A stretch of 64,000 bases of DNA from Skermania sp. ID1734 (GTDB taxonomy: Bacteria > Actinomycetota > Actinomycetes > Mycobacteriales > Mycobacteriaceae), in NCBI RefSeq assembly GCF_007489285.1, contig NZ_VLIY01000021.1:1-64000 (forward strand), given 5' to 3'. Positions 33,163 through 52,377 of this stretch are shown here, in pieces. The stretch's first letter is position 1, and each line of letters starts with the position of its first letter. The notes under the pieces were generated by a model, which saw nothing but the letters and a program-made list of their open reading frames with translations, had not been told where the DNA came from and did no database searches. The position numbers and the translations under genes are program-made.

Positions 33163-33891
33163 GTGATTCCCGAATTCAAAGACCGCAACCTCTTCTTCGC
33201 CTTCTCCACATTCACCGGGGAACGTGCCGTATTCGACAAGTGGTACGACGAAGAGCACATCCCGCAGGTAACCGACGCTACCGGGATGGTGGGGGCGCAA
33301 CGCTTCGTCGTAGCAGACACCAAGCCGCTCAACGGAACTGAGCCGATCGACTACGGCCACCTGGCCATGTACGAGCTCGAGGGCAGCCCAGCGGCCTTCC
33401 GCGAGGAGGTCAAGGAGATGCTCATGTCCGGTGAAATGGTGTTGCCGGACTTTATGGTTCAGCCGTTCAAGGCGCTGTTCCTGGAGCCGCTGAGCCCTCC
33501 GCAGTATGGCGACGCGGCCAAAGAGCTGGAGAATCTCGATGACCGGCATCTCTGGTTGGTCTTCAGCCGTCCGCCGGCCGACCGTGCGACTTTCGAGAAG
33601 TGGTACGACGAAGAACACATTCCGGATGTCTTGTCCGCGCCCGGTCTGGTTCGGGCGCAACGGTTCGGGATGTCGCCGGTTAAGCCACTTCCCGGGGTCG
33701 TGGTGCCCGAGTGCGAGCATCTGGCGGTGTACGAGATCGCCGGCGATCCGGGACCGCTTCGTGAGCATGTCAAGCAGCAACTCATCTCGGGCGAGATGGT
33801 GCTGCCCGACTTCATGAATCAGAGCTTTCCCGCGATGTTCCTGCGGCCGGTGAGCCCGTTCTGGTTAGCAGCGGGGGCACTGCAGAAATGA
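33163..33891 (+). CDS. Tandem EthD-like dimeric alpha/beta-barrel protein
   Basis: A 242-residue protein made of two near-identical halves (about 1-115 and 120-235). Each half has F(D/E)KWYDEEHIP(Q/D)V near its start and MLMSGEMVLPDFM or QLISGEMVLPDFM near its end. This is an internal duplication of the EthD/ferredoxin-like fold that normally dimerises, so the protein should form a barrel alone. EthD-like proteins accompany catabolic oxygenases and hydrolases, some with dehydratase or cyclase activity. It starts with GTG at 33163 after AAAGGA, and its stop overlaps the next start by four bases. Confidence 0.82.
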   Translation: MIPEFKDRNLFFAFSTFTGERAVFDKWYDEEHIPQVTDATGMVGAQRFVVADTKPLNGTEPIDYGHLAMYELEGSPAAFREEVKEMLMSGEMVLPDFMVQPFKALFLEPLSPPQYGDAAKELENLDDRHLWLVFSRPPADRATFEKWYDEEHIPDVLSAPGLVRAQRFGMSPVKPLPGVVVPECEHLAVYEIAGDPGPLREHVKQQLISGEMVLPDFMNQSFPAMFLRPVSPFWLAAGALQK

Positions 33892-35474
33892 ACCTCAACT
33901 GGGTCGTGGACGCCGTGTCGAGCCAGGTTCCGCTGACTGAGCCCGACCGGATCGCGCTCAGTTTCGATGGCACCGTACGCACCACTTACGGCGAACTCGA
34001 GGAAGGCACCCGCCGCTACGCGCGAGCGCTACGAGACCTGGGTCTGAACAAAGGCGATCGCCTCGGTCTACTGCTGTACAACGACGCTGAATACCCGGCA
34101 CTGCTCATGGCGGCCGCGCGTCTCGGCGTGATCGTGGTCCGCCTGAACTTCCGGCTGACGGCGGCGGAAGTGGAATTCATCCTCTCCGATTCCGGTGCAT
34201 CGGTGGTGATTGTGCACAGCAGCCTGCTCGATCGAGTTGCGCCCGTGCGGGAAAAGTCGGGCGTCGCAAGCGTTGTGGTGGTCGCCGATTCCGACGATCC
34301 GATTCCTGACTGGGCGCAGGCTTTCGAGGAGCTGAAGGGCAAGGATGCGTTGACCCGGGCGGAGTTACCGGTGGTGGCGCCGTCCGACCCACTGTGTCTG
34401 ATCTATACCTCGGGCACGACCGGTCTGCCCAAGGGCGCGATCTGGTCGCACGCCAATACCGTCAATATTGCCGCCATGCAGGCCCTGCGCTGGCAGTTCG
34501 GCAAAGACACCGTCGCGCTGGTACCCGGACCGATCTATCACGCCGGCGGATTCGAGGCGGTATTCCTGCCGGCCTTGCTCATGCAAGGCCGTGCCGTATA
34601 CCTGCAATCGGGCGGCTTCTCTACCGACCGGTTCCTCGAGGTCCTGCAGGCCGAACAGGTCACCGACTGTCTGCTGTTCCCGTTCATCCTCACCGACCTA
34701 CTCCATCGCGACGACCTCGAGCACATATTGCCAAAGTCATTGCGCCGGTTCATCCTCGGCGGTGACATGCTGATGCCGTCGACAGCCCAGGAGGTCAAGC
34801 GCCGGCTACCCCACATCAAGCTCTGTCAGGTGTTCGGCCTGACCGAGGGCGGTGCCATCGCCACCACGCTCGAAGACGACGACTTTTTGACCCAACCCAA
34901 GTCCATCGGCCGTCCGTTGCCCCTGGGCGAGGCACGCGTCATCCGAGAGGACGACACTCTCGCCGATGTCGATGAAGTCGGCGAGATCGAGGTCCGAAAC
35001 GCCGGCGTGTGCGCCGGATATTGGAACAGACCTGAGGCCAACGCTGCCACGTTTTATGACGGCTGGTGCCGCACAGGCGATCTGGGCTATGTGAACGCCG
35101 ATGGCTTCTTGCACTTGTCCGGCCGCGCCAAGGACATGATTCGCAGCGGCGGGGAGAACATCTACCCCGCAGAGATAGAGAAGGTGCTTTCGGCGCACCC
35201 AGCGGTGCAGGCGACGGCGGTCGTCGGCGTCCCCGACACCCGCTTCACCGAGGTGGGCTGCGCCGTTGTGGTGGCCGAACCCGGACCCACACCCGACCCC
35301 GCTGAGCTGCGCGCGTTTTGTCGTGAGCAACTCGCCGGGTACAAGGTGCCCAAGTATTTCGTATTCGTGGACGAACTGCCCATGAACGCCTCCGGCAAAG
35401 TTCTCAAATACCAACTGCGCCATACCTACGCCGATATCGAAGCTCGATCGACAGGAGAGAAGTCACCAGCATGA
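33888..35474 (+). CDS. Acyl-CoA synthetase (AMP-forming)
   Basis: A 528-residue ligase with P-loop YTSGTTGLPKGAIWSH, A5 motif VFGLTEGGAIATT, hinge CRTGDLGYVNADGFLHLSGR followed by AKDMIRSGGENIYP, and the A10 lysine in PMNASGKVLKYQL. It makes acyl-CoA from a carboxylate, ATP and CoA. The start overlaps the EthD-like stop and the stop overlaps the SDR start by four bases each. In acetophenone-type pathways a dedicated ligase activates the beta-keto acid formed by the carboxylase. That is the role proposed here, by analogy. Confidence 0.92.
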   Translation: MNLNWVVDAVSSQVPLTEPDRIALSFDGTVRTTYGELEEGTRRYARALRDLGLNKGDRLGLLLYNDAEYPALLMAAARLGVIVVRLNFRLTAAEVEFILSDSGASVVIVHSSLLDRVAPVREKSGVASVVVVADSDDPIPDWAQAFEELKGKDALTRAELPVVAPSDPLCLIYTSGTTGLPKGAIWSHANTVNIAAMQALRWQFGKDTVALVPGPIYHAGGFEAVFLPALLMQGRAVYLQSGGFSTDRFLEVLQAEQVTDCLLFPFILTDLLHRDDLEHILPKSLRRFILGGDMLMPSTAQEVKRRLPHIKLCQVFGLTEGGAIATTLEDDDFLTQPKSIGRPLPLGEARVIREDDTLADVDEVGEIEVRNAGVCAGYWNRPEANAATFYDGWCRTGDLGYVNADGFLHLSGRAKDMIRSGGENIYPAEIEKVLSAHPAVQATAVVGVPDTRFTEVGCAVVVAEPGPTPDPAELRAFCREQLAGYKVPKYFVFVDELPMNASGKVLKYQLRHTYADIEARSTGEKSPA

Positions 35475-36271
35475 GTACGCTCGATCGTGGACACAAGCCT
35501 GAGTTCGTGCTGATCAGCGGCGCGGCCGGCGGTGTGGGTTCGGCGACCGCTCGCCGCTTTGCCGCCGACGGAGCAAAGGTCGCAGTCACCGACATCAACG
35601 CCGAACGGCTCAAGGAACTCGCGGATGAGATCGGTGGGCTGGCATTGCCCGCCGACGGCACCCAGCGAGAGGCCGTGCGCGATGTGGTCGCTCAGGCCGT
35701 CACCGAATTCGGCGGGCTGGATACCGTCATCGCGGGGCAGGGCGCCGCGGTCTCCGGAAACGCCAGCGCCAAGGGGGATCCCGCTTGGTTCAAGGCGTTC
35801 GACGTGAACCTGCACGGTGGCTTCTATCTGGTGAGCGAGGCCCTCCCCCACCTCGCAGCGCGACGCGGTTCCATCGTGATGATTTCCTCGTCGGCTGGGA
35901 CGCACTCGGGACCGCCGGGAACGGTCGGCTACACCGCGGCCAAGGCGGGCGTGATCGGCCTTGTGCGCTGGCTGGCCAGGGATTTCGGACCGCGCGGTGT
36001 CCGGGTCAACGCCGTGGTGCCGGGCTGGGTTCGCACCCCGCTGGGTGAGGGCGCAATGAGTTACCTCGCGCAACGCGAAAACATCACCGTCGATGAGGCG
36101 TACGCGCTGGCAACGAGCCACGTACCCTTGCGTCGGGCCGCCGAGCCGGAGGAGATCGCTGCTGTGTGCGCCTTCCTGGCGTCGCCGGATGCCTCTATTG
36201 TCACGGGGCATGCACTCGTTGCCGACGGTGGCGGCGCTGCGGTGGATACCGCGACCATAGTCTTCGATTGA
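35471..36271 (+). CDS. Short-chain dehydrogenase/reductase
   Basis: A 266-residue SDR. The coenzyme motif is SGAAGGVGSATA (Ser in place of the usual Thr), the active site is MISSSAGTHSGPPGTVGYTA with YTAAK, and NAVVPGWVRTPLGEG follows. The usual NAG triad is altered to AGQGAAV. An Asp in the second strand (VTDINAERL) favours NAD. It is the last gene of the zinc-ribbon/HyuA/HyuB operon, with a 4-base overlap, and is followed by a strong hairpin. It may supply the ketone from an alcohol, or reduce a keto product. Confidence 0.9.
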   Translation: MSTLDRGHKPEFVLISGAAGGVGSATARRFAADGAKVAVTDINAERLKELADEIGGLALPADGTQREAVRDVVAQAVTEFGGLDTVIAGQGAAVSGNASAKGDPAWFKAFDVNLHGGFYLVSEALPHLAARRGSIVMISSSAGTHSGPPGTVGYTAAKAGVIGLVRWLARDFGPRGVRVNAVVPGWVRTPLGEGAMSYLAQRENITVDEAYALATSHVPLRRAAEPEEIAAVCAFLASPDASIVTGHALVADGGGAAVDTATIVFD

Positions 36272-36591: not shown

Positions 36592-37620
36592 ATGACAACG
36601 GCAACGGCAACGGCCGCACCTGCGGCGGGGCCACGCCTGTCGCTGCGTGACCGGTTCGGGCGCGCCGAGCAAGCCTACTTCGTCCTCGGCATCACAGTGG
36701 TGCTTTGCATCGCCGGTGCGCTCACCACGCAGAACTTCCTGACATCGGGCAATTTTGCGAGCCTGCTTCGTCTTTCGGCCGCATTCGGCATCCTGGCAAT
36801 CGGCGAGGCAATCGTCATCCTCGGCAAGGGCATCGACCTTTCCGTCGCCGGTATCGGCCTCGGCTGCGCCCAAGCCACCCTTGCCTTCATCAGCAGCGGG
36901 ATGCCCGAGTGGCAGGCGATCACCCTACTCACGCTCCTGGCGTTGGGAATTGGCGTAGTCAACGGAGTATTGATCGCATATTTCGAGGTACCGGCACTGT
37001 TCGCGACGCTCGCGACCGGGATGCTTGCGATCGGCGGTATCGACATTTTGTTCCTCGACCAGAACGTCTACACGGTGCCGGGCTCGTCGATCATTGCCGC
37101 GCTGAGCCACGGCTCCGTTTTCGGCATTCCGCGTCCCGTGATCATCGCCGCGGTCGTCTTCGTCCTCGCGTGGCTGTTCATCTCCTACACGTCGCCCGGC
37201 AAGCTGATCCGTGCGATGGGCGACAACTTCGACACCGCACGCTCGAGCGGCGCTCCCGTCCGGCCGTTGCAGGTGCTCACTTACGTCATCGCGGCACTGT
37301 TGGCGGTGCTGGCCGGCTTTGTCACCGCCTCGATTCAGGGCAGCGTTCAAACCACGGTGACGTCGTTCGACCCGATTCTTTTCACGGCGTTGACGGTCGC
37401 GGTAATCGGCGGTGTTTCACTCTCGGGCGGCCGCGGCTCGATTCTCGGTGTGCTGGCCGGTTCCTTGTTCGTCGGCGTACTGAACAACTTGCTTGTGCTG
37501 CACGGCCTTTCGAGCGCTGTTCAGGACTTGATCCGTGGCGCGGTGCTGATCGCTGCGATTGCGTTCGACGCCTGGCTGCATCCGCGCAACGAGGAGACAG
37601 CGAAGTCCGGCGAATTGTAG
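36592..37620 (+). CDS. Sugar-type ABC transporter permease (RbsC-like)
   Basis: A 342-residue inner-membrane permease with about nine to ten helices after a short Ala/Thr-rich tail. The family signature GKGIDLSVAGIGLGCAQATL follows helix 2, and ALTVAVIGGVSLSGGRGSIL lies near the end, as in ribose, xylose and autoinducer-2 permeases. ATG at 36592 with AAGGAGC upstream; an earlier in-frame start would add 23 residues outside the family pattern. It is the first gene of a five-gene importer operon with a lipoprotein binder, a second permease and a double ATPase. Confidence 0.92.
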   Translation: MTTATATAAPAAGPRLSLRDRFGRAEQAYFVLGITVVLCIAGALTTQNFLTSGNFASLLRLSAAFGILAIGEAIVILGKGIDLSVAGIGLGCAQATLAFISSGMPEWQAITLLTLLALGIGVVNGVLIAYFEVPALFATLATGMLAIGGIDILFLDQNVYTVPGSSIIAALSHGSVFGIPRPVIIAAVVFVLAWLFISYTSPGKLIRAMGDNFDTARSSGAPVRPLQVLTYVIAALLAVLAGFVTASIQGSVQTTVTSFDPILFTALTVAVIGGVSLSGGRGSILGVLAGSLFVGVLNNLLVLHGLSSAVQDLIRGAVLIAAIAFDAWLHPRNEETAKSGEL

Positions 37621-37667: not shown

Positions 37668-38738
37668 ATGAAACGCAAAGTCATCGCCCTCGCAACCGCA
37701 GTGGCTGCGGCGACCGCCATCGCCGGTTGCTCGGTCAACAGCGGCGCAAGCGCCGATCAGGCCGGCAACGGCAAGGCAGCCTTCGGGCCCAACGTCGAAC
37801 TGCTGCCCGCGCAGCAAAAAGTGCACGACATCATGAAGGGCAAGCGCGTCGCGTTTGTTCCCATCCTCTACAAGGGCTACACCCTGACCGAGAACTGGGG
37901 CTCGACGATGCAACGCTCCTTCGACAGTCTCGGCGCCGATTTCAAGGTGTACGACTCGAACTTCAGCAGCGACCGGATGATCAGCATCATCAACGACCTG
38001 ATCGCCCGCAAGGCCGCCGACGTGCTGGTGTTGCAGAACCAGGATCTCGGGTTGTTGGACAACGCAATCCAGCAGGCGCAAAAGGCGGGCATCTACACCG
38101 TCGTGCTGAACATGATGTCAGGACGGCTCGGTGACGCGTTCGTCGGCGTCGATGTCGTCGACGCAGCGCAGAAGATCACCAAACGGGCGATGGACGACTG
38201 CAACGCCCGCGGCGGCCCCAAACAGTTCGCGATCATCGACGGTCCCGGAAACGACCCCGCTTCGGTGCAGTGGGACAAGGGCATCCACGACGTCCTCGAT
38301 CCGGCCGGTTACAAGGTCGTATCGGTGGCCCACTCGCAGTGGCAGAACTCGCTGGCTCAACAGGCCGCAGAGCAGATCCTGCAGCAGCAGAAGGGCAACG
38401 TCTGCGGATTTCTGGTGGCCTACGACCTCAACTCGGTCACCGTCGGTGAAACCGTCCAGAACGCCGTATCTTCCGGCCAGATCCCGCCGAATTCCGTCGG
38501 CGTGTACACATTCGACGCCGATCGGCAATGGTGCGACGCACTCCGCAAGGGCACGGTGACCGCGTCCGTGGCCTATGACGTGCAAGGTATCGGCGCGGCA
38601 GCGGCGGTGACCACCCAGCAGCTGCTCGAGAGCGGTAACGCGCCGGGCAGCACCCACTCGGTTGCCTTTGTCTCGGACGTCCTCGTCGACAAGAACAACA
38701 TCGACAACACCACGATCGCTTGCTACCAGGGCCAGTAA
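37668..38738 (+). CDS. ABC transporter substrate-binding lipoprotein
   Basis: A 356-residue binding protein. The signal peptide MKRKVIALATAVAAATA ends in the lipobox IAGC, so Cys20 is lipid-anchored to the outer face of the membrane. The mature part is a periplasmic-binding-protein type 1 domain (Peripla_BP_4, sugar class) with FSSDRMISIINDLIARKAAD, VVLNMMSGRLGDAFVGVDV and VYTFDADRQWCDALRKGTV. It presents the substrate to the two permeases. The ligand is unknown; sugars, polyols and similar cyclic compounds are usual for the class. ATG at 37668 follows CAGGAG. Confidence 0.92.
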   Translation: MKRKVIALATAVAAATAIAGCSVNSGASADQAGNGKAAFGPNVELLPAQQKVHDIMKGKRVAFVPILYKGYTLTENWGSTMQRSFDSLGADFKVYDSNFSSDRMISIINDLIARKAADVLVLQNQDLGLLDNAIQQAQKAGIYTVVLNMMSGRLGDAFVGVDVVDAAQKITKRAMDDCNARGGPKQFAIIDGPGNDPASVQWDKGIHDVLDPAGYKVVSVAHSQWQNSLAQQAAEQILQQQKGNVCGFLVAYDLNSVTVGETVQNAVSSGQIPPNSVGVYTFDADRQWCDALRKGTVTASVAYDVQGIGAAAAVTTQQLLESGNAPGSTHSVAFVSDVLVDKNNIDNTTIACYQGQ

Positions 38739-38740
38739 TC

Positions 38741-40957
38741 ATGACTACTCACACACTCGGTGATAGCTCGCCGCCCTTGCGGCCGCCAAGGCTGCGCCTC
38801 GGTCCGTTGTCTCGAGGTATCGACGCCTTCGCCCTCACCGGTGGACGCTGGACCGACCGCATTGCCCGCTTTCGCACCGTCTCCGAACTGTTCGAAAAGC
38901 GGTGGATGGAAGGTGCGGTGCCGCTGGCGCTGGCGGTGACGCTGCTCGTTGTCGTACTGGCCACTACGCCGGTCGGCTTCGACAACGCCCCCCTCATTCT
39001 CGATGAGACCTCGGAATACGGACTGCTCGCCGTGGGTCTGACGGTGGTGCTCGTCGGCGGTGGCATCGATCTGTCGGTCGGTTCGATCGTGGGCGTGAGC
39101 TCGATCTTCGTGATGGTCGCCAACCGCGTCTGGGCCTGGCCGATGGCCATCGTCGTGCCGGCGGCGATCGTCGTCGGCGCCTGCTTCGGAGCCATCAACG
39201 GTTTTTTGATCGCACGCATGCGGATGCGCCCGTTCATCACCACGCTGGTCACGCTCGTGGCGTTCGGTGGAGCAGCGGCGGCACTGCAAAGTGTTTACAG
39301 CGCTCAGATCGGTCTGTCTCGCCCGGACATCGTCTGGGACTTCCTCAGCATGGGCCAGATCGCTGGCATCCCGACCGAGTGGTTCATCTTCCTGGTGGTG
39401 CTCATCGTGGCGCATCTGGCGCTCACGCGGTCGCGATGGGGCTGGTGGATCACGGCGGTCGGGTCGGACCGGCGCTCGGCCCGGCGCAACGGAATTCCGG
39501 TCAGCGCAGTTACCTTCTGGATTTACGTCATTTCTGGAGCGCTGTCGGGCACGGCTGGATTGCTCACTGCAGCAAGGCTCGGCCGCACCGACCCGAACGT
39601 GGGGCAGGGCTGGGAAATCATCGTCCTCACCGCCGTCGTGCTCGGTGGGGTCAGCCTCAAGGGTGGGCGCGGATCGGTGATCCGAGCGACTGTCGGGGTC
39701 CTCGTGGTCGCGGTGATTCAGCAGGCCACCGTCGCCCTCGGCGTGCAGGGGTCCTACTACACCGTGATCCTGGCTGCGGCGCTACTGGTCTTCACTCTCC
39801 TTGATCTGAAGTGGGGCAAGTATCGTCAGCGCGCCGTCGAGAAACTCAAGATCGATCCGGCGCGGGTGCAACTCGGGCCGCTGCTCGACGTCGCCGCCCC
39901 CGGCAGCGTGTGGGCGCTGAATCGGGACTTGACCGATGCGCCGCCGGTGGGGCTCGGCCAGATACGCGGTGCCGAGGACTGCGCGGTCGATGCCGAGGGC
40001 AACGTGTACTGCGGTGACCAGCGCGGCTGGGTGTGGCGGTTCCGCCCCGGCCACGCAGAAGGCGAGATCTTCTCCCGCACAGGGGGCTTCCCGTGCGGTC
40101 ACGTGTGGGACAGCGAGGGCAAGCTCGTTGTGGCCGTCGGCGGCATGGGCGTTTATCGCATCGACGCCGATGGCGAAGCGGAGCTCATCGCCAACAAGGT
40201 TCGCCGAAGCCCGTTTTCGTTGCTCGACGACTCCGGCCTCCGCGCGATCGACGACCTCGACGTTGCTCCCGATGGCTCGATCTATGCCTCGGACTTCTCC
40301 ACCCGCAACAACACGGCGGACTACCTGATCGAACTCGTCGAGTTCCGGTCGAACGGCCGGGTCATCCGGATCGATCCGGACGGCAGTACCGAGGTGGTCG
40401 TGTCCAATTACACCTTCCCGAACGGTATTTGCACCGCCCACGACGGTAAGTCGATTCTGATTGCCAGTACCGGCCTGTGCCGGGTGGACCGGCTGTGGAT
40501 CGATGGGCCCAAGAAGGGGCAGCTCGAGCCGGTGCTCGAGAACCTGCCCGGCTACCCGGACAACATCAACAGGTCCTCGGACGGTAACTACTGGTTGCCG
40601 CTGTGCGCCATGCGAACTCAGATGTCCGATCTGCTCGGCAAGTATCCGGCGGTCCGCCGTCGGATGACTCGCGAAGTGTCGCTGGACAATTGGTTGGTTC
40701 CGCAGCTGAATGTCTCCTGCGTGATCAAGTTCAACGACCGCGGCGAGGTGTTGAAGGTGCTGTGGGACGAAACGCTGGCGAACTACCCCATGGTTACCGC
40801 CGTCAAAGAAAGCGCCGGCCACCTTTACCTGTGCGGGGTCAGCAACAATCGCATCGGCCGGTTGAAGCTGGATCCGAGCGAAATCGGCCCGATCGACCCG
40901 GCTCAGGTCCCCGGCACGCGACGACCAGCGCGAGCACTTGCGGAGGTGGATCGATGA
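38741..40957 (+). CDS. Fusion of ABC permease and strictosidine-synthase/SMP-30-like propeller
   Basis: A 738-residue two-part protein in one uninterrupted frame. Residues 1 to about 355 are an RbsC-like permease (GGGIDLSVGSIVGVSS, then VVLGGVSLKGGRGSV). From about 365 to the end follows a six-bladed propeller of the strictosidine synthase/SMP-30 class, with AVDAEGNVYCGDQRGWVWRF, DDLDVAPDGSIYASDFSTRN, FPNGICTAHDG and LPGYPDNINRSSDGNYWLPL. The propeller should lie on the cytosolic side and could act on the incoming substrate, for instance opening a lactone. The next gene encodes a second, free propeller. A sequencing error joining two genes is unlikely, because no start or ribosome site is seen at the junction. 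Confidence 0.9.
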   Translation: MTTHTLGDSSPPLRPPRLRLGPLSRGIDAFALTGGRWTDRIARFRTVSELFEKRWMEGAVPLALAVTLLVVVLATTPVGFDNAPLILDETSEYGLLAVGLTVVLVGGGIDLSVGSIVGVSSIFVMVANRVWAWPMAIVVPAAIVVGACFGAINGFLIARMRMRPFITTLVTLVAFGGAAAALQSVYSAQIGLSRPDIVWDFLSMGQIAGIPTEWFIFLVVLIVAHLALTRSRWGWWITAVGSDRRSARRNGIPVSAVTFWIYVISGALSGTAGLLTAARLGRTDPNVGQGWEIIVLTAVVLGGVSLKGGRGSVIRATVGVLVVAVIQQATVALGVQGSYYTVILAAALLVFTLLDLKWGKYRQRAVEKLKIDPARVQLGPLLDVAAPGSVWALNRDLTDAPPVGLGQIRGAEDCAVDAEGNVYCGDQRGWVWRFRPGHAEGEIFSRTGGFPCGHVWDSEGKLVVAVGGMGVYRIDADGEAELIANKVRRSPFSLLDDSGLRAIDDLDVAPDGSIYASDFSTRNNTADYLIELVEFRSNGRVIRIDPDGSTEVVVSNYTFPNGICTAHDGKSILIASTGLCRVDRLWIDGPKKGQLEPVLENLPGYPDNINRSSDGNYWLPLCAMRTQMSDLLGKYPAVRRRMTREVSLDNWLVPQLNVSCVIKFNDRGEVLKVLWDETLANYPMVTAVKESAGHLYLCGVSNNRIGRLKLDPSEIGPIDPAQVPGTRRPARALAEVDR

Positions 40958-42054
40958 ATCGCACGCTGACCGCCGTCAAGGAGTTCCTGATCCCGTCGCT
41001 GGGTCGGCACCGGACCGTCCCGCCGATGGAGGCGGGCATGCGGCCCAACTCGCGCCTGGACGCGGCGGAACTGCTGCTTCCCGCCGGCGAATACGAGCCC
41101 GAAGACGTAGCCTTGACCGACTCCGGGGCGCTGGTGTTCTCCAGTGGCAAGTCGGTCTTCGAGGTCGTCGACAGCCGGGTGCGCGAGCTCGCGTCGCTGC
41201 GTGGACTGGTCGGCCCACTACTGGCCAACGGCGCTGGCGTTCTCGCTGCGGTCGAAGGGGTCGGAATCGTTTCCGTGGGCGCGTCGGGTGCCACCAATCC
41301 GGTGTGTGACGACCCGCTCGTGTCCTCGTGCGTGACAGACATGACCCGCGCGCCGGACGGAGCGCTGCTGGTGACCGTGGGTTCCCACCGGCATGGCCGC
41401 GACGAGTGGGCATGCGCGCTGGTCGCCGACGACAGGTCAGGACGAATCGTCCGCGTCGACGGGTCGCAGGTAAGCGTCGTCGCCGATGCGTTGGCCTGGC
41501 CGTCTAGCATCGAAATGTGTTCGGACACCGAGGTTTTGCTTTCGCTCAGTCTCGCGCACCGCATCGAACGACGTTCGCTGGCCGCTCTCGGCAAGTCGGC
41601 GGGTGCCATGGTGGCGAACCTGCCGGCGTATCCGGGCAGGCTGGCGGCCGACGACGACGGCTGGTGGGTGGCGGCACCCTACGTGCGCAACCGGTTTACC
41701 GAGTTGCTCCTCGACGAACCGGAACTGTGCGCCGATATGACCGAAACCATTGCGCGCGACGAGTGGTTCGTACCGAGATTGCGCTGCGTCAATCCGTACA
41801 CCGACACCATGCAGATGGGACAGCTTCGGGTGCTCGGCGTCGTCAAGCCATGGGCACCGGCCCGGTCGTACGGCTTGGCATTTCGGCTTGATCACAACGG
41901 TCGCATCACCACCAGCGTGCACTCCCGCGTCGACGGCGATCGCCACGGCGTCACGGGCGTTGCCGCGCACAATGGCAAATTGATAGTGGCAGCGCAGGGC
42001 TTCGGCAATCTGCTCGCGCTGCAGGACGGGAAGGGCAGTGACGACCATGACTGA
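40954..42054 (+). CDS. Strictosidine-synthase/SMP-30-like beta-propeller protein
   Basis: A 366-residue soluble protein related to the propeller half of its upstream neighbour. It has MTRAPDGALLVTVGSHRHGR, SLAHRIERRSLAALG and LPAYPGRLAADDDGWWVAAP, the last matching LPGYPDNINRSSDGNYWL in the fusion. No signal peptide. The usual metal-ligand residues are not clear, so it may be catalytic (lactonase or hydrolase) or a divergent partner subunit. ATG at 40954 overlaps the fusion stop by four bases, with CGGAGG upstream. It overlaps the ATPase gene at its 3' end. Confidence 0.82.
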   Translation: MNRTLTAVKEFLIPSLGRHRTVPPMEAGMRPNSRLDAAELLLPAGEYEPEDVALTDSGALVFSSGKSVFEVVDSRVRELASLRGLVGPLLANGAGVLAAVEGVGIVSVGASGATNPVCDDPLVSSCVTDMTRAPDGALLVTVGSHRHGRDEWACALVADDRSGRIVRVDGSQVSVVADALAWPSSIEMCSDTEVLLSLSLAHRIERRSLAALGKSAGAMVANLPAYPGRLAADDDGWWVAAPYVRNRFTELLLDEPELCADMTETIARDEWFVPRLRCVNPYTDTMQMGQLRVLGVVKPWAPARSYGLAFRLDHNGRITTSVHSRVDGDRHGVTGVAAHNGKLIVAAQGFGNLLALQDGKGSDDHD

Positions 42055-43558
42055 GCAGGATGTGCAGGACGTCCAACCGGTTATCGAACTCGCTGGAATC
42101 AGCAAACGCTACGGCGGCACCTACGCGCTGCGTGAGGTGAACTTCGATGTGCGCCCCGGCGAAATTCACGCGCTGCTTGGTGAAAACGGCGCGGGCAAGT
42201 CAACGCTAGTCAAAATCGTCTCTGGAGCCATCGCGCATGACAACGGAACACTCACGATCGACGGTAGGGTGCAGAGATTCGCCACGCCCAAGGATTCGGC
42301 AGACGCGGGCATCGCGATGGTCTACCAGGAAGGCTCGCTCGTCGAATCGATGACCGTGGCGCAGAACCTGTTTCTCGGCCAGGAGAAGGTCTTCAACAAT
42401 CTGGCCCACCTCAATGTGGTGGCCCGGGAATTACTGGAGTCGCACAATTTTCACATTCGACCGGAGGCGACCGCGGGCGCGCTCGGTATCGGACAGAAGC
42501 AGATGGTCGAGATTGCCCGTGCGGTACACCGGGATGCGAAGGTGGTCATCCTCGACGAACCGACCGCCTCGGTCACGCCCGAGGAACGGCTGCAACTGTT
42601 CCTGTCGATGCGCCGGCTCAAGCGCAAGGGTATCGGCGTCATCTTTATCACGCACATGCTCGATGAAGCCTTCGACGAGGCCGACCGCATCACCGTGCTG
42701 CGCGACGGCGAGGTGCAAGGCACACTGGCCAAGCCGGAGTTCGACCGCGAGACAGTGGTGCAGATGATGGTTGGTCGAAACGTCGAAATGGGTCGGGTCA
42801 CGCCCAACCGCGAACCTGATCCCACCCCCGTGCTGCAGGTCGAGGACGTGACACTGCTACCTGTCGTCCGCAACATGTCGTTCTCGGCGTACCCCGGCGA
42901 GATCGTCGGCATCTACGGACTCGTCGGCGCCGGCCGAAGCGAAGCGGCAATGATCATCAGCGGAATCATGAAGCGGCGCAGACTGCGTGGCGGCAAAATC
43001 CGACTGAACGGGCGAGAGGTGCGGTTCCGCACGCCCCGGCATGCGCGCCGAGCCGGCATCGTGTACATCACCGAGGATCGCAAGGCGTCGGGGTTCTTCG
43101 GGCACCTGTCGATCGCCGACAACATCTACCTCGGGCACCTGTGCGGCAGTCCTCGCCTGCCGATGCTTATTCGGCCCGGCGAGCGAAAGTCGGTGGCGCA
43201 GCGCTTCGTCGAGCGCTTCCAGGTGCGCACACTGGAACCGAATCGGGCAACGTTGGAGGAACTCAGCGGCGGCAACCAGCAGAAAGTGGTGTTGGCCAAG
43301 GGACTTACCCGCAAGCCGCTCGTCGCGATTATCGATGAGCCGACGCGCGGGGTTGACCTGGGCACCATTCCCGAGATCCACGCGATGATTCGAGCGCTTG
43401 CCGACGACGGGGTCGCGGTGGTGGTGATTTCTTCTTACATGCCGGAAATCCGCGCACTGGCGGACAGAATACTGGTGGCCAAACACGGAACCATCGCCGC
43501 CGAGTTCGACCCGGTGGAAGCCGACGAGACGAAACTTATGTTCGCCGCGGTGCATTGA
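42047..43558 (+). CDS. Sugar-type ABC transporter double ATPase (RbsA-like)
   Basis: A 503-residue ATP-binding protein with two nucleotide-binding domains. Domain 1 has Walker A GENGAGKST, signature LGIGQKQMVEIARAV and Walker B VVILDEPTASV. Domain 2 has the degenerate YGLVGAGRSEAA usual for RbsA-type proteins, LSGGNQQKVVLAKGL and VAIIDEPTRGVDLG. It energises uptake by the two permeases. ATG at 42047 is preferred, with GGGAAGGG 11 bases upstream; a GTG nine bases earlier is too close to it. It is the last gene of the importer operon, followed by a strong hairpin. Confidence 0.93.
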   Translation: MTEQDVQDVQPVIELAGISKRYGGTYALREVNFDVRPGEIHALLGENGAGKSTLVKIVSGAIAHDNGTLTIDGRVQRFATPKDSADAGIAMVYQEGSLVESMTVAQNLFLGQEKVFNNLAHLNVVARELLESHNFHIRPEATAGALGIGQKQMVEIARAVHRDAKVVILDEPTASVTPEERLQLFLSMRRLKRKGIGVIFITHMLDEAFDEADRITVLRDGEVQGTLAKPEFDRETVVQMMVGRNVEMGRVTPNREPDPTPVLQVEDVTLLPVVRNMSFSAYPGEIVGIYGLVGAGRSEAAMIISGIMKRRRLRGGKIRLNGREVRFRTPRHARRAGIVYITEDRKASGFFGHLSIADNIYLGHLCGSPRLPMLIRPGERKSVAQRFVERFQVRTLEPNRATLEELSGGNQQKVVLAKGLTRKPLVAIIDEPTRGVDLGTIPEIHAMIRALADDGVAVVVISSYMPEIRALADRILVAKHGTIAAEFDPVEADETKLMFAAVH

Positions 43559-43644: not shown

Positions 43645-45060
43645 TCACGGCCGAAGCCGGTCCATGATCGACCTGACATCCTCGACGTCCTCGAGCGCAA
43701 ATACTGCTTCTACCACGGCGTCGGCATCCGCGTCGTGGAGCACGCCGTCGACGTTGCGCCGGAACTTTGCAGTCAGTTCGTCGTTGGTCATGTAGCTCGA
43801 TGGGTCCGGTGACGGGCTGCCCTTGGGGTAGTGCCGCTCCCCCGCGAAAGTCGTTCCGCGAGCCACCACTTCGATCCGCGACTGTCGCGCTGCCGGGTTC
43901 GACGTCAGTGCCGCAGCGTAATCGGGGTGGGGCTGATAGGTCACCTTCTTCATCAGGTTCATGACCGACGGGCTCGATACGAACTCGGGGTCTTGCCACT
44001 GCCTGCCGGGCGGGCGCCGATGCGCGCCGACGGCGAGCCCGTGGGCCATGCTGAACTGTGCGTCGCGCGGGTCTTCGACCGTCTCGTTGAGCCACACCGG
44101 TTGCAGCACGAAGCTTTCACCCCAGGCCCTGATGGAGTCGATCTCGTCGGGCTTGATGTCGTTGTCTTCGACTATGTCGGTCAGTGCGTCGAGCAGAGCA
44201 TGCAGCACGCGGCAGTGCGGGTAGGGCTTGAAGGACTGGAACGGCGTGAATGTCCATTCGGTGCCCAGGTTCGCGGTGATCGGCTCCGGCACCCACCGGC
44301 CTGTGCCGATGAATCGCGGAAAGCCGAACTCGCGGTCGTCGAGGATCTGGCGGTCGCCGCGATGGCCGAACTCCGCCAGATGCGCTGCGGTCATTGCCAC
44401 CAGCGCCTGCCCGCCAGCAAGCTGGTACTTGATAGTGGTGGACGGCGCATGCATCATCCAAGCCCGTTGGTAGTTCACCGGCGCGGTGCAACCAGCGATT
44501 CCGAGCGCATCGCTCACCGTTTCACGCGAGAACGAGTTCACCAACCCGATCGCCGCGGTTGCCCCGAAAATGGTGCTGCTGTAACCGATTACCGGCGGTA
44601 TCGTGACGACGCCGTCTTTCATGTCGCGGAGGTAATCAGTGGCTTTGCCGATTCGATACGAGATTTCGTGCGCTACCGCGATCGCGGTGAGCAGGCGCGC
44701 ACCGCTGCGGCCGCCCACCTCGGCCGCAGCCAGCGCACCGGGCAGGACGTAGGGCGTGACGTGGCCGGGCGGCAAGACAGGGTCCTGATCGAGCGCATTG
44801 ATCAGTTCTGCATTGGCGAACGCCGCACCGAGTTCCGATGTGCACTCTTTGGTTCCGATGATGGAAGCGTGGCCGTTGTCTCCGCCGAGAACCCGTCCAT
44901 ACCGCACGGCGATCTCCGCGCCCCGATCACCCAACGAGGCGACGGCGCACCCGAGCGAGTCCAACAGAATTCGCTTCGATTCTTCGATCACCTCCGCAGG
45001 CAGAGACGCGGTCTCGACGTCCACCGCAAACTCGGCGAGCTGTTCGATGATTGTTGGCAT
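43645..45060 (-). CDS. MmgE/PrpD family protein 1
   Basis: A 471-residue member of the family of 2-methylcitrate dehydratase and cis-aconitate decarboxylase. Typical blocks are VIEESKRILLDSLGCAVASL, ANAELINALDQDPVLPPGHV, AIAVAHEISYRIGK, INYQRAWMMHAPS-like sequence and FKPYPHCRVLHALLDAL. It probably dehydrates or decarboxylates a hydroxy or unsaturated acid; the exact reaction is not readable. It is the third gene of the ALDH-ADH-MmgE operon, 10 bp after the dehydrogenase. A distant paralogue at 50873 is close by. Confidence 0.88.
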   Translation of the reverse strand: MPTIIEQLAEFAVDVETASLPAEVIEESKRILLDSLGCAVASLGDRGAEIAVRYGRVLGGDNGHASIIGTKECTSELGAAFANAELINALDQDPVLPPGHVTPYVLPGALAAAEVGGRSGARLLTAIAVAHEISYRIGKATDYLRDMKDGVVTIPPVIGYSSTIFGATAAIGLVNSFSRETVSDALGIAGCTAPVNYQRAWMMHAPSTTIKYQLAGGQALVAMTAAHLAEFGHRGDRQILDDREFGFPRFIGTGRWVPEPITANLGTEWTFTPFQSFKPYPHCRVLHALLDALTDIVEDNDIKPDEIDSIRAWGESFVLQPVWLNETVEDPRDAQFSMAHGLAVGAHRRPPGRQWQDPEFVSSPSVMNLMKKVTYQPHPDYAAALTSNPAARQSRIEVVARGTTFAGERHYPKGSPSPDPSSYMTNDELTAKFRRNVDGVLHDADADAVVEAVFALEDVEDVRSIMDRLRP

Positions 45061-45070
45061 GTATTCCCTT

Positions 45071-46192
45071 TCAGGAGTCGTAGATGATAACGCCGCGCAG
45101 GTTCTTACCGGCCTTCATGTCCTCGAAGCCCTTGTTGACATCCTCGAGTCGGTAGCGGGTGGTGATCAGTTCATCGAGTTTCAATGACCCCCGTTGGTAC
45201 ATCTCGAGCTGCGCCGGTATGTCGGCAGTGGGCGAACTTGCGCCGAACAGTGAACCCTGTAAGCGCTTCTGGTACAGCGTCAATTCGTGCAGGTTGATAT
45301 CGCCGTCCTTGACGAACGTGTCGCCGATGCCGACGGCGACACACGTGCCCGCCTTGCGAACAGCCCCCAACCCCCGGCCGACGTCATGCCCGGTCAGTAT
45401 TCCCACAGTCACGATCGAGGAATCCGCGCCCTGACCGTTGGTCATCGACCGCGCAACCTCGGTGGCCTCCTCGATCGTTGCGAGGGCATGCGTCGCGCCG
45501 AGCTTCAAGGCTGAATCGCGTTTGAATTCCACGGGATCCACCGCGATCACCGCGTCCGCGCCGGCGTGTGCCGCGCCCTGCACCGCGTTGATGCCGATAC
45601 CGCCGATACCCATGACAATGACTACCTGCCCAGGCCGAACCTGAGCCGAGTTCACCGCGGCACCCCAGCCCGTGCCGACGCCGCAACCGGTCAAACAGGC
45701 GACGTCCAGGGGGATCGACGGATCGATCTTGATGGCCGACGCGGTGGACACCACGATGCGTTCGCAGAACGTTCCCAGCGCTGCAAGCTGCCCGACGGGT
45801 TTGCCCGCCAAGGACAACCGGAACGATCCAGGATCGTCGAAACGGCAACCAGTAGCGAGAAATGCGCCGAGATCACACAGATTCTGCAGTCCGCGCGCAC
45901 ACCAGGTGCACCGTCCGCACACGGGCAGGAACGAGAACACCACGTGGTCGCCCTCGGCAAAGCCTGCGGTGGCCGGCCCGACCGCTTCCACGACGCCGGC
46001 ACCCTCGTGACCGCCGGCGATCGGCAGAATCGCCGGGGTTTGGTCCCCGGTCGCGAAGTGGTCGTCGGAGTGACACAGACCCGCAGCCACCATCTTGACG
46101 CGAATTTCACCTTGCCGCGGGTCGTCGAGGTCGAGTTCGACCACCTCGTACCGACCCGGCGACGTGCGCAACACTGCACCGCGAGTCTTCAT
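45071..46192 (-). CDS. Zinc alcohol dehydrogenase, NDMA-dependent type
   Basis: A 373-residue medium-chain dehydrogenase. Catalytic zinc ligands are Cys40 (GLCHSD) and His62-Glu63 (GGHEGAG). Structural Cys92, Cys95, Cys98 and Cys106 are all present. The pattern GCGVGTGWGAAVNSAQVRPG followed by IGGIGINAVQG fits the NDMA-dependent dehydrogenases, in which NAD stays bound and mycofactocin is thought to re-oxidise it. It converts an alcohol to an aldehyde, which the ALDH 16 bp upstream in the same operon can oxidise. This and the SDR at 53685 both hint at mycofactocin use. Confidence 0.9.
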   Translation of the reverse strand: MKTRGAVLRTSPGRYEVVELDLDDPRQGEIRVKMVAAGLCHSDDHFATGDQTPAILPIAGGHEGAGVVEAVGPATAGFAEGDHVVFSFLPVCGRCTWCARGLQNLCDLGAFLATGCRFDDPGSFRLSLAGKPVGQLAALGTFCERIVVSTASAIKIDPSIPLDVACLTGCGVGTGWGAAVNSAQVRPGQVVIVMGIGGIGINAVQGAAHAGADAVIAVDPVEFKRDSALKLGATHALATIEEATEVARSMTNGQGADSSIVTVGILTGHDVGRGLGAVRKAGTCVAVGIGDTFVKDGDINLHELTLYQKRLQGSLFGASSPTADIPAQLEMYQRGSLKLDELITTRYRLEDVNKGFEDMKAGKNLRGVIIYDS

Positions 46193-46208
46193 TTTCGGCT
46201 CCTACCGG

Positions 46209-47675
46209 TCACCCTAACGAATTCGCCAGTGCCGGCGGCAAGCCATAGGACTTCAACTCCACGTACGCCTCGAAGCCCTCGATACCGGCCTCGCGACCGA
46301 TACCGCTTGCCTTGAAACCGCCAATTGGAGAATGGAATCCGACGACATGGCCGTTCAGCTCCACAGTTCCGGTGCGAATGCGCCGCGCTACGGCAAGGGC
46401 GCGTTCGTCATCCGCAGTGAACACCGACCCGTTGAGTCCGAACTCCGAGTTGTTGGCGATCGCCACGGCCTCGTCATCGTCGCCGAAGCTCAGCACCGAA
46501 AGGACCGGTCCGAAGATCTCTTCCTGAGCAATTCGCATATTCGGTTGCACCTCGCTGAAGATCGTCGGCTCGACAAACCATCCCCGGTCCAGCCCGGCCG
46601 GACGACCACCACCGATCACCACCTTGGCGCCCTCACCGCGGCCGATCTCGATGTAGCGCTCCACCATGTCGCGCTGGCGGGCAGCAACGAGGGGTCCGAC
46701 CTCCGTGGCATCGTCCGCAGGGTCACCAACCGGCATGGACTCGACCATCGCGGTCAGGCGGTCGAGCAATTCGGCCTCTCGCGAGCGGGCAACCACGACC
46801 CGCGTCTTGTTACTGCAGGCTTGGCCGGTGTTGCGCAAAGACAACTTTCGAATCTGCGCGACGGCCAGATCCAAATCCGCATCCTCGAGAATCACCGCCG
46901 CGGATTTGCCGCCGAGCTCGAGCGTCACCCGGCGTAGGTCCTGCCCGCACAGCGCCGCGACGCGGCGCCCGGCCGCAGTGGAACCGGTGAACGAAACCTT
47001 GTCGACATCACGATGGGTGACCAGGTATTCGCTGACCTCCCGATCGGCGGGTAGCACGCTCAGCACGCCCGGTGGCAGTCCAGCCGATTCCAGCATTTCG
47101 GCGAACAGATAGGAATCGAGCGGAGCCTCAGGCGAGGTCTTGAGGATCGCCGTGCAGCCGCTGAGAAGAGCGGGCGCAAGCTTGAGCATGGTCACGAGCA
47201 TCGGTGCGTTCCACGGTACGACCGCGGCCACGACGCCGACCGGTTCCCTTGTCACCAGACCGGTTCCCGTGCTGGACCGTCGAATGGTGCTCCATTCGAC
47301 CTGCGGGGCGAGGTCGATGAAGCTGTCCAGCAAGGCTTTCGCGCCCGCGGACTGCATGGTGCGGGACAATGAGATCGGACAGCCCATTTCGTCGGAGACG
47401 ATGCGGGCCAACAGTTCCTGTTGCTCGCCCAACTTTGCGCTGACTCGGTTGAGCACGTCGATCCGTTCCGTCAGCGACAGTTGGGGCCACGGTCCGTTAT
47501 CGAATGCGTTCCGGGCCGCCGCAACCGCCCGATCGACGTCAGCCTTTGTCGCCGCCGGCACCTCTGCCACGATCTGTTCGGTGAACGGCGAGATCACGCG
47601 GATCTTGTCATCGGATGCTGGCTTCTCCCACCGACCGTCGATGAACAGCCTTGTGTAATTGCCCTGCCAGACCAT
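46209..47675 (-). CDS. NAD-dependent aldehyde dehydrogenase
   Basis: A 488-residue ALDH starting MVWQGNYTRLFIDGRW, after GAAGGGAAG. It shows the VVPWNAPM substrate/NAD block, VSFTGSTAAGRRVA, the catalytic Glu in TLELGGKSAAV, the catalytic Cys in NTGQACSNKTRVVV, and EEIFGPVLSVLSF. It oxidises an aldehyde to the acid. First gene of an operon with an NDMA-type alcohol dehydrogenase and an MmgE/PrpD protein, under the conserved two-block promoter also found at the ABC importer. The set would oxidise an imported alcohol to the acid and then modify it. Confidence 0.93.
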   Translation of the reverse strand: MVWQGNYTRLFIDGRWEKPASDDKIRVISPFTEQIVAEVPAATKADVDRAVAAARNAFDNGPWPQLSLTERIDVLNRVSAKLGEQQELLARIVSDEMGCPISLSRTMQSAGAKALLDSFIDLAPQVEWSTIRRSSTGTGLVTREPVGVVAAVVPWNAPMLVTMLKLAPALLSGCTAILKTSPEAPLDSYLFAEMLESAGLPPGVLSVLPADREVSEYLVTHRDVDKVSFTGSTAAGRRVAALCGQDLRRVTLELGGKSAAVILEDADLDLAVAQIRKLSLRNTGQACSNKTRVVVARSREAELLDRLTAMVESMPVGDPADDATEVGPLVAARQRDMVERYIEIGRGEGAKVVIGGGRPAGLDRGWFVEPTIFSEVQPNMRIAQEEIFGPVLSVLSFGDDDEAVAIANNSEFGLNGSVFTADDERALAVARRIRTGTVELNGHVVGFHSPIGGFKASGIGREAGIEGFEAYVELKSYGLPPALANSLG

Positions 47676-47725
47676 GTCGCTTCCCTTCGTTGCGCACGCT
47701 GAATGGCGAGTCATGTGACGTCACT

Positions 47726-47882: not shown

Positions 47883-48986
47883 GTGGCAACCGGAACGACC
47901 GATTCGAGTCACCGCGATGTGGCACTCGACGACGACCTCGGCAGGCGCATCCGCGACTTGACGGCGGACGCCACGTCCATTCTCGGGCGCACACTTCCGG
48001 TCCGCGACCTAACCCGCGCCATCCCGGCCAAACAGATGCTGCGCCACCTGTGGGATGCCACCGTCGCGGAGTTGTTGCAGGGCGTGGACAACCGCGCGGT
48101 CCCCGACCGCCTTGCGGATCTGACGGTGCTACTGGCGCGCATCCGCGAGGCCGAAGCTGCCATCGACAACGCACGCGTCGATGAGGGCGTCATGATGCTT
48201 CGGAGGGTCCGCCGTGCTCTCGCTCGACTCCAAGAAACTGCCACCGTCGACGACCTGCTCACGAGTGCAGCAGAAGCTGCATGCACTCTCGGGTTTGACC
48301 GCGCGCTGCTGTCCACCATCAAAGACTCAACCTGGAACTTGCACACCATGTACATCACGGGTGATCCGGTGTTGGCCCGGGAGATGGAGGCGGCCGGTCG
48401 GGAAAACCCGCGCAAACTGGACGGCACCCTCGTCGAAAGCGACATCGTGACCAAGGCGCGACCTGGTCTCGTGTACGACGTCCAGCACAACCCACGGGTC
48501 AACCGGGATCTGACCAAACTCAGCGGTTCGACCTCATACGGCGTCGCCCCGCTGACCATCCGCGGAAACGTCGTCGGCCTCGTACACGGCGACTGCTATC
48601 GACCACACAGAGAAGTCGATGCCACCGATCGCGCGGTGCTGAACCTCTTCGCCGAGGGACTCAGCCACACGCTGGCCCGGGTGACTGTGGTCGAGGGCCT
48701 CGCCAACTTGCGCGCGGGCATCGACAACATCGGCTCCGCAATCAATATCACTGCGCGCCAACCTGTTGCACCGCAACCGCTCCAGCACCCGCTGCTGTCC
48801 ACCCGCGAAGTCGAGGTCATCGAACTACTCGCGGCGGGCGAGTCCAATCGGCTGATAGCGCGCAAGCTGTCGATATCCGAAGGCACCGTCAAGACGCACA
48901 TCACCCATATCTTGCGCAAACTGGGCGCCGCAAACCGTGCCGAAGCGGTGGCCTACTGGCTTCGCGACGCAAAGACGCGGACGTAG
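47883..48986 (+). CDS. GAF-domain LuxR-type transcriptional regulator
   Basis: A 367-residue regulator with a helical N-terminus (about 1-110), a GAF-like sensor domain (about 115-265, FDRALLSTIKDSTWNLHTMY, then YGVAPLTIRGNVVGLVHGDC) and a C-terminal LuxR helix-turn-helix: LSTREVEVIELLAAGESNRL, then IARKLSISEGTVKTHITHIL. It starts with GTG at 47883 after TGGAGCG. Divergent from the ALDH-ADH-MmgE operon, it is a reasonable candidate to recognise the two-block promoter shared with the importer and the dehydrogenase at 49719. That assignment is inference. Confidence 0.9.
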   Translation: MATGTTDSSHRDVALDDDLGRRIRDLTADATSILGRTLPVRDLTRAIPAKQMLRHLWDATVAELLQGVDNRAVPDRLADLTVLLARIREAEAAIDNARVDEGVMMLRRVRRALARLQETATVDDLLTSAAEAACTLGFDRALLSTIKDSTWNLHTMYITGDPVLAREMEAAGRENPRKLDGTLVESDIVTKARPGLVYDVQHNPRVNRDLTKLSGSTSYGVAPLTIRGNVVGLVHGDCYRPHREVDATDRAVLNLFAEGLSHTLARVTVVEGLANLRAGIDNIGSAINITARQPVAPQPLQHPLLSTREVEVIELLAAGESNRLIARKLSISEGTVKTHITHILRKLGAANRAEAVAYWLRDAKTRT

Positions 48987-49023
48987 CCTCGGCGCTGCGC
49001 GAGGGAAGGACAATCGGGCCTCT

Positions 49024-49041
49024 TGATATCATCGGATATCA
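49024..49041. promoter_or_regulatory. vapBC operator palindrome
   Basis: TGATATC-ATCG-GATATCA, a perfect 18-bp dyad, ends at the AGGAGG ribosome site of vapB. Antitoxins of this class repress their own operon through such dyads, so it is the likely VapB binding site. Binding would also mask translation initiation. Confidence 0.7.
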
Positions 49042-49054
49042 GGAGGCGAAACCG

Positions 49055-49276
49055 GTGACAGACATTCTGATCCGAGACGTACCAGACGATGTTCTACGTC
49101 GCATCGACGCAGACGCCGCGCGGGCGGGATTGAGTCGGAACGAGTATCTCCGGCGTGAGGTCGAACGGCTCGCTCGCCGTAGTGCAAACCCTGTCACCGT
49201 CGCTGATTTCCGACGGTTCACCGACCTCACCGGCGACCTGACCGACGATGCCGTGATGCGGCGGGCGTGGTCGTGA
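49055..49276 (+). CDS. vapB: VapB-type antitoxin
   Basis: A 73-residue protein with an N-terminal ribbon-helix-helix DNA-binding fold ([20 protein letters not shown], then [16 protein letters not shown]) and a C-terminal tail (about 48-73) expected to wrap the toxin active site. It neutralises VapC and represses the operon. GTG start at 49055, nine bases after AGGAGG. Its stop overlaps the toxin start by four bases, giving coupled translation. Small, compact, and placed between unrelated metabolic genes, which suggests mobile insertion. Confidence 0.9.
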
Positions 49277-49680
49277 CGGACGGATGGGTCGTAGACAAAT
49301 CAGCGCTAGCTCGGTTTGGGCGGTCACCGGACGGTGAAATGTGGGCGGCCCGTACTAGCCGCGGACTGGTGCGAATCACCGTTATAACGCTGCTCGAGGT
49401 GGGCTATTCGGCCCGCTCCGCCACCGACTGGCACGCGAGCATTGCCTTGCCGCCCGTTGCCTCGATGCCTGTCGAGAATCTCACTCCCCGCATGGAAGCT
49501 CGTGCCGTTGAAATCCAAGGGCTGCTTGCCCAAAGGGGGCACCATCGTGCTCCGTCGATTCCCGACCTACTCGTCGCCGCGGTGGCCGAAGCCTCGGGCT
49601 TAACGGTGCTGCACGTGGATAAAGCTTTTGATCTCATCGCTGAAATCACTGGTCAGCCAGTCGAGAGGTTGCGGATATAA
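49273..49680 (+). CDS. vapC: VapC-type PIN-domain ribonuclease toxin
   Basis: A 135-residue PIN nuclease starting at the GTG at 49273 ([15 protein letters not shown]); a GTG six bases earlier is also possible. The acidic metal-binding residues Asp8, Glu42 ([11 protein letters not shown]), Asp98 ([12 protein letters not shown]) and Asp116 (HVDKAFD) are all present, so the toxin appears intact. VapC toxins cut tRNA or rRNA and stop growth when the antitoxin is lost. It overlaps vapB and is convergent with the next alcohol dehydrogenase gene, 38 bp away. Confidence 0.92.
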
Positions 49681-49718
49681 CCGGTTGGGTTCCCGGGATA
49701 AGTGGCCGCCAGAAGGAG

Positions 49719-50768: not shown

Positions 50769-50793
50769 CACACGCTCCTTCTACGTAGGTCGA

Positions 50794-50865
50794 AACAACT
50801 GTCGCCCAGTGCACATTGCGGCAACATCTGCCGCGAGTCGGATTCCGGTACGACTTTCGGCGGAC
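50794..50865 (-). promoter_or_regulatory. Conserved two-block promoter, copy C (alcohol dehydrogenase)
   Basis: On the minus strand block 1 (50837-50865) reads GTCCGCCGAAAGTCGTA, then C, then CGGAATCCGAC. After 32 bases block 2 (50794-50804) reads CGACAGTTGTT, identical to copy B. It lies between the MmgE/PrpD stop (50873) and the dehydrogenase start (50768), in the same orientation to its gene as copies A and B. Confidence 0.7.
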
Positions 50866-50872
50866 TGCAGCC

Positions 50873-52360: not shown

Positions 52361-52377
52361 AATTGAAGGTGGACAAC

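Follow-up and report, generated by a model that had tools for sequence, protein, structure and literature searches.

What role could a propeller domain play when it is fused to the permease of an ATP-binding cassette (ABC) importer, and what would a second propeller, encoded directly behind it, contribute? This question is raised by a locus of Skermania sp. ID1734 (Actinomycetota) on a stretch of 64,000 nucleotides of contig NZ_VLIY01000021.1, here called the window. A first-pass annotation, made from the sequence, had described a permease joined to a propeller of the strictosidine-synthase/SMP-30 class and had proposed that the substrate is hydrolysed or sensed as it enters the cell. The reading that we favour, and regard as somewhat probable, is that the locus encodes a CUT2-type importer in which a cytosolic metallo-hydrolase is tethered to the permease and accompanied by a propeller without catalytic function, and that the substrate is a lactone, ester or hydroxyacid rather than a sugar.

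The architecture described in the first-pass annotation holds in its main points (Table 1). One uninterrupted frame, translated into 738 residues, leads from an RbsC-like permease (PF02653, residues 90-352) into a propeller matched by SSL_N (390-434), SGL (418-620) and Str_synth (504-589), and the AlphaFold model of the fusion combines a helical membrane part with a propeller (predicted local distance difference test, pLDDT, 74.5). The next gene, whose start overlaps the stop of the fusion by 4 bases (ATGA), encodes another propeller of the same fold class (SSL_N and Str_synth; propeller in the AlphaFold model, pLDDT 83.8), and both genes lie between the Peripla_BP_4 lipoprotein and the two-cassette ATPase. 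The earlier description left out an unfused partner permease at the head of the operon, which has the same position in every related locus not cut by a contig end. The operon thus consists of five genes in the order partner permease, binding protein, permease-propeller fusion, free propeller and ATPase. With PF02653 permeases, a two-cassette ATPase and a Peripla_BP_4 protein in one operon, it has the composition of a CUT2-type importer.

This arrangement is a widespread fixed architecture and not a peculiarity of the Skermania genome. A database search for the same domain order, which the first-pass annotation had suggested as a check, returned 62 loci in Actinomycetota and Pseudomonadota, 42 with enough flanking sequence and 20 with shorter flanks. 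In 62 of 62 loci the fusion is unbroken and the second propeller comes next. Apart from genes truncated at the end of a contig or record, the full five-gene order is present in all 42 well-flanked loci and the order binding protein, fusion and second propeller in all 20 others; the exact 4-base overlap recurs in most loci. Full-length fusions were found by tblastn in plasmid records of Celeribacter, Shinella, Rhizobium, Pantoea, Paraburkholderia, Salipiger, Sulfitobacter and Paracoccus, and the annotated plasmid regions that we inspected carry the identical five genes in identical order. A scan of species genomes added carriers in Bradyrhizobium, Mesorhizobium, Variovorax, Comamonadaceae, Hoeflea and Sneathiella; the five-gene importer is common to many soil and marine bacteria. 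The fusion is carried by 10 of 399 genomes of the window's order, by 2 of 201 of its family (with more in another family of the order), by 7 of 337 in the class of the Bradyrhizobium locus and by 10 of 349 sampled for the phylum Pseudomonadota, where some genomes have two or three copies. Of 150 genomes of the order, six had a member of the second-propeller family; each of these six also carries the fusion, and the gene always adjoins it. No relative away from a fusion was found among these 150. Viral carriage of the fusion was not found. The Skermania genome has seven genes of the WhiB family, which among 14 control genomes was detected in Corynebacterium only and so marks the host as an actinobacterium; the other fusion carriers of the order that we checked have WhiB as well, and two carriers in Pseudomonadota lack it. 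Because the same intact fusion occurs in unrelated species of two phyla, with the second propeller always next to it, a frameshift, an assembly error, chance and read-through are ruled out as explanations. Confinement to the window's family is likewise ruled out by the carriers in another family and in Pseudomonadota.

We found that the two propellers differ in a conserved set of divalent-metal ligands, which by alignment is present in the fused propeller and absent from the second one. In the fused propeller, E412, N561, D607 and N608 are retained in 42 of 42 loci, and position 504 holds D (36 loci) or N (6 loci), with two or three acidic residues among the ligand positions. The second propeller has T (33 loci), N (6), S or Q at the position of 504, residues such as S, A, Y or F at 561, G, A or S at 607 and R (41) or K (1) at 608, while 412 is mostly D. 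Positions 561, 607 and 608 are thus lost in all or nearly all of the 42 loci and 504 in most. The ligand positions correspond to E59, N167, N226 and N272 of the rice protein TGW6: N561 and N608 stand opposite N198 and N244 of the chain (chain numbering plus 28 gives N226 and N272), the equivalence of E412 and E59 is placed by a wider profile match only, and that of D504 and N167 needs one gap to be moved in the alignment. Hydrolytic members of the propeller superfamily are marked by four conserved ligands, and the strictosidine synthases are metal-independent members of it (PMC4215206). The active Ca2+ lactonase of DrSOD uses Glu/Asn/Asn/Asp (PMC12362111), whereas TGW6, with one acidic ligand, binds no Ca2+ (PMC10958001).

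Because the ligand set is kept, with two to three acidic residues as in the Ca2+ enzymes, the fused propeller is probably an active metallo-hydrolase with a Ca2+-type site. The retained ligands also argue against its membership among the true strictosidine synthases, which condense tryptamine and secologanin independently of metal by means of a catalytic Glu. The free propeller does not qualify as another enzyme of this type: as a second lactonase it was rejected, since the ligands at 504, 561, 607 and 608 are lost. It is a probable pseudoenzyme and more likely a partner or regulator.

Comparison with solved structures supports the six-bladed fold. Both propellers match TGW6, strictosidine synthase, the RPA3624 lactonase and PON1, and the fused one in addition DFPase. 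Closest to the fused propeller is the ester hydrolase TGW6 (8kg3; 2.4e-21 by sequence, 4.5e-16 by fold), followed by strictosidine synthases, RPA3624, DFPase and PON1. The two propellers are homologous to each other (100% probability in a profile comparison, 23% identity). In a tree with stand-alone strictosidine-synthase-like proteins, based on a quick search and showing long branches, they form three clean groups (support 99 for the fused, 100 for the second and 99 for the stand-alone propellers), which is consistent with a single origin of each operon propeller within our sampling. The ratio of nonsynonymous to synonymous substitution rates in eight close pairs is 0.01-0.11 for the fused and 0.12-0.30 for the second propeller; purifying selection acts on both and is weaker on the second. 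A family-specific segment of the second propeller (residues about 281-309; Q..G....G..KPWAP.RSYGL) is conserved and partly modelled with low confidence by AlphaFold, and is a candidate docking site. The same Skermania genome also encodes a stand-alone strictosidine-synthase-like propeller (C12:25704-26615, L001), which falls in a clade apart from both operon propellers.

The fused propeller was assigned to the cytosolic face in the first-pass annotation, and the charge distribution agrees with this prediction. The permease part has ten helical spans in the AlphaFold model. Over 42 proteins, the mean number of lysine and arginine residues per inside loop is 2.2, 0 (the re-entrant GGIDLS), 2.0, 3.9, 1.1 and 4.0, compared to 0.4 or less in the outside loops. 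In linker residues 359-373 it is 4.0, against 0.6 for aspartate and glutamate, and the distance from W358 in the last helix to E412, the first ligand, is 52-55 residues in 42 of 42. Because a basic segment directly precedes the propeller and the charge pattern alternates, the positive-inside rule gives a well-supported prediction that both termini of the fusion are inside and that the propeller is cytosolic. Release of the propeller by a ribosomal re-start appears disfavoured; the window's linker contains in-frame GTG and TTG codons and no ATG, and a methionine is present in only 16 of 42 loci. No signal-like stretch or export signal was seen in the second propeller.

To narrow down the substrate, we compared the Pfam families found around the fusion (20 loci, 107 flanking proteins) with those around ordinary RbsC-type permeases of the same two phyla (27 loci, 104 flanking proteins), taking the 25 commonest families on each side. 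Next to the fusions we found aldehyde dehydrogenase (Aldedh, 6 of 107), acyl-CoA dehydrogenase (5), CoA transferase III (4), zinc-dependent alcohol dehydrogenase (Zn-ADH, 4) and MmgE/PrpD (3), and no sugar kinase among the 25 commonest families. The ordinary loci showed FGGY (6 of 104), ROK (4) and PfkB (4), plus binding proteins, with none of the fusion-side enzyme families among their 25 commonest. The neighbours enriched at fusion loci fit the catabolism of organic acids, alcohols and CoA esters rather than of sugars, and this taxon-matched control disfavours a sugar importer. No NCBIfam equivalog for a sugar transporter reached its cut-off for the window importer. A BLAST-based enrichment was set aside as biased, its queries having been drawn from fusion loci.

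Several catabolic genes of the window recur near the operon in relatives; the acyl-CoA ligase and short-chain dehydrogenase/reductase (SDR) upstream are not conserved as a pair. The window's Zn-ADH is 74-75% identical to the Zn-ADH adjoining the operon in L035 and L134-L136: in L035 (75%) it stands directly before the operon, and in L134-L136 it follows the ATPase and is itself followed by an aldehyde dehydrogenase. In the Salipiger locus L030, a pair of these two enzymes likewise comes after the ATPase. Such an order suits a route in which a lactone is opened to a hydroxyacid, which is oxidised via the semialdehyde to the acid and then activated with CoA. In the Mesorhizobium locus L040, genes for 3-hydroxy-3-methylglutaryl-CoA (HMG-CoA) reductase, a CoA transferase and an enoyl-CoA hydratase, the five transporter genes and an HMG-CoA-lyase-like gene form a close run, with gene ends overlapping or abutting around the transporter. 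In Shinella HZN7 (L029), an HMG-CoA reductase 77% identical to that of L040 lies directly upstream of the operon. Because HMG-CoA enzymes flank both operons, mevalonate or mevalonate lactone is the most concrete substrate candidate for these two loci; a full-text literature search found nothing relevant on mevalonate catabolism with a transporter.

Further observations concern the surroundings and copy number of the operon. In five genomes (G1312, G1435, G996, G927 and G930) the fusion occurs as two or three divergent copies, which suggests different substrates per copy. Upstream of the acyl-CoA ligase and on the same strand, the window encodes hydantoinase/oxoprolinase A and B, followed by an unassigned open reading frame of 242 residues (29160-33129, +); the hydantoinase genes were not found beside the operon in relatives. 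Two exported-looking PF10282 proteins (seven-bladed 'Lactonase') with signal-like N-termini are encoded at 21672-22856 and 24655-25821 (+). Relatives of both (63% and 52%) and a third such protein adjoin the same five-gene operon in L035, so that the shared cluster carries further propellers.

Table 1 Features of the importer locus and neighbouring genes in the window.
Feature	Position	Strand	Remarks
Acyl-CoA ligase (AMP-binding) and SDR	33888..36271	+	upstream; likely local catabolic genes
Partner permease, RbsC/CUT2-type, without propeller	36592..37620	+	342 aa; first gene of operon; PF02653 5.2e-31
Substrate-binding lipoprotein, Peripla_BP_4, XylF-like	37668..38738	+	356 aa; PF13407 1.1e-36; lipobox IAGC, read from sequence
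Permease-propeller fusion	38741..40957	+	738 aa; single open frame by translation; permease ~54-358, helical linker ~359-375, six-bladed metallo-hydrolase-type propeller ~390-720
Fusion linker after tenth transmembrane helix	39815..39868	+	residues about 359-376; basic
Metal-ligand position E412	39974-39976	+	fused propeller
Metal-ligand position D504	40250-40252	+	fused propeller
Metal-ligand position N561	40421-40423	+	fused propeller
Metal-ligand position D607	40559-40561	+	fused propeller
Metal-ligand position N608	40562-40564	+	fused propeller
Free second propeller, probable pseudoenzyme	40954..42054	+	366 aa; SSL_N and Str_synth
ATPase, two ABC cassettes	42038..43558	+	506 aa; PF00005, two stretches, 9.9e-53
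MmgE/PrpD, NDMA-dependent alcohol dehydrogenase, aldehyde dehydrogenase	43645..47714	-	catabolic genes also near operon in relatives
NDMA-dependent alcohol dehydrogenase	45071-46192	-	TIGR03989 above cut-off
LuxR/GAF regulator (+), Zn-ADH (-), second MmgE/PrpD (-), CoA transferase III (+)	47883..53553		Zn-ADH at 49719-50771

In the mechanism that we propose, two permeases, one plain and the other extended at its C-terminus by a catalytic propeller, would form the importer together with a two-cassette ATPase, a binding protein that is either lipid-anchored or periplasmic, and a soluble propeller without catalytic function. The binding protein would hand over a small substrate other than a sugar; in several clades this would probably be a lactone, an ester or the related hydroxyacid. 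After ATP-driven passage the substrate would emerge beside the fused cytosolic propeller. There, the putative Ca2+-type site E412/D504/N561/D607/N608 may hydrolyse the ring or ester and trap the product, which would be passed on to the alcohol dehydrogenases, aldehyde dehydrogenases and CoA-ester enzymes encoded nearby; the cell may in this way process the nutrient during entry. As a subunit with a structural or regulatory role, the free propeller would bind to its fused counterpart or else to the ATPase or the permease. Hydrolysis on entry, for example lactone opening, as put forward in the first-pass annotation, is plausible for the fused propeller because it is predicted to be cytosolic and its metal-ligand set is invariant; for the free propeller the proposal falls away. 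A bolder and rather unlikely version is a vectorial import-and-hydrolyse machine, in which the exit of the importer feeds the fused metallo-lactonase, irreversible ring opening partly drives uptake and the pseudoenzyme gates the hand-over. Such a machine would give ABC importers a covalent counterpart of group translocation.

Several points weigh against the importer-hydrolase proposal. We infer both the enzymatic activity and the substrate. The ligand set is read from sequence positions, the model of the fusion is of only middling confidence (predicted template-modelling score 0.49), and the pairing of D504 with N167 depends on the moved gap. Free mevalonate would suit the L040 operon without any lactonase. 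The neighbours vary between clades, so that substrates probably differ, and for the window's own operon a lactone is a candidate only.

The main rival is a sensor role, in which both propellers would detect accumulated cytosolic substrate and brake or stimulate the importer, with catalysis minor or absent. C-terminal domains of MetN and ModC are known to regulate their importers in response to ligand, and it would suit such a role that the metal-site-less propeller always occurs one-to-one with the transporter, that its conserved segment of low model confidence (residues 281-304) suggests a docking surface, and that it evolves faster than the fused propeller yet under constraint. A pure sensor, however, would not need the full metal-ligand set that is invariant over two phyla in the fused copy, and known trans-inhibition domains are located on the ATPase, not the permease; we consider this role unlikely. 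It is less likely still that the two propellers are scaffolded enzymes without coupling, the fused one an ordinary tethered hydrolase and the free one a metal-independent enzyme, with co-localisation fixing stoichiometry only. The second propeller does keep nearly invariant residues of its own, such as Y226, P227 and R229, and metal-independent strictosidine synthases belong to the same superfamily (PMC4215206), but the absolute linkage to transporter genes in all loci points to an importer-tied function, as does the lack of relatives elsewhere in the 150 genomes of the order.

Processing before uptake, by a propeller outside the membrane, seems very improbable. Related plant propellers are often secretory and the two PF10282 proteins of the window have signal-like N-termini, but the positive-inside pattern, with the most basic loop right before the propeller, and the second propeller without an export signal speak against it.

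Both halves of the fusion come from known families. The fixed fusion of permease and hydrolase with an obligate metal-site-less propeller partner appears undescribed in the searchable literature; a full-text search, which covered few subscription papers, found no published description of a permease/propeller fusion. Public records mostly name the fusions 'SMP-30/gluconolactonase/LRE family protein' and their partners 'sugar' ABC parts, which hides the permease half and probably gives the wrong substrate class. Fixed across two phyla and located in catabolic clusters of both chromosomes and plasmids, the system would allow import coupled to chemistry to be studied genetically, and its naturally paired active and inactive propellers would help to probe the role of a pseudoenzyme in a transporter.

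With RbsC/AraH-type importers the operon shares the permease family, two-cassette ATPase, Peripla_BP_4 protein and ten-helix pattern, but its two permeases differ from each other, with an enzyme-type domain attached to the C-terminus of one, and it has an extra gene for a soluble propeller and organic-acid and CoA enzymes instead of sugar kinases as neighbours. The N6P metal hydrolases (SMP-30/gluconolactonase, DFPase, PON1, XylC and the DrSOD propeller) have the six-bladed fold and the ligands E/N(D)/N/D-N in common with the fused propeller (PMC12362111, PMC4215206), which in contrast is covalently attached to a transporter, is nearer in sequence to the strictosidine-synthase-like branch and is a predicted hydrolase. 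In DrSOD, a Ca2+ propeller lactonase occurs in natural fusion with a superoxide dismutase, which is a precedent for grafting such a domain onto an unrelated protein (PMC12362111), although the partner is not a transporter and there is no companion pseudoenzyme. Unlike in MetNI and ModBC, the added domain sits on the permease, and the Pfam matches in the window ATPase are limited to the two ABC stretches, with no sign of an extra regulatory domain. Importer and propeller lactonase are also encoded together in sugar ABC operons such as L126 and L127, but the lactonase is a separate gene there (28% identical in L127) and a second propeller is absent; the Neorhizobium rbsB-rbsA-rbsC-rbsC-gluconolactonase operon of L126 (2181-7563) is an unfused counterpart. 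Within the window's family, L007 and L014 carry strictosidine-synthase-like propellers at the C-terminus of longer frames (753 and 655 aa), which are possibly other fusions.

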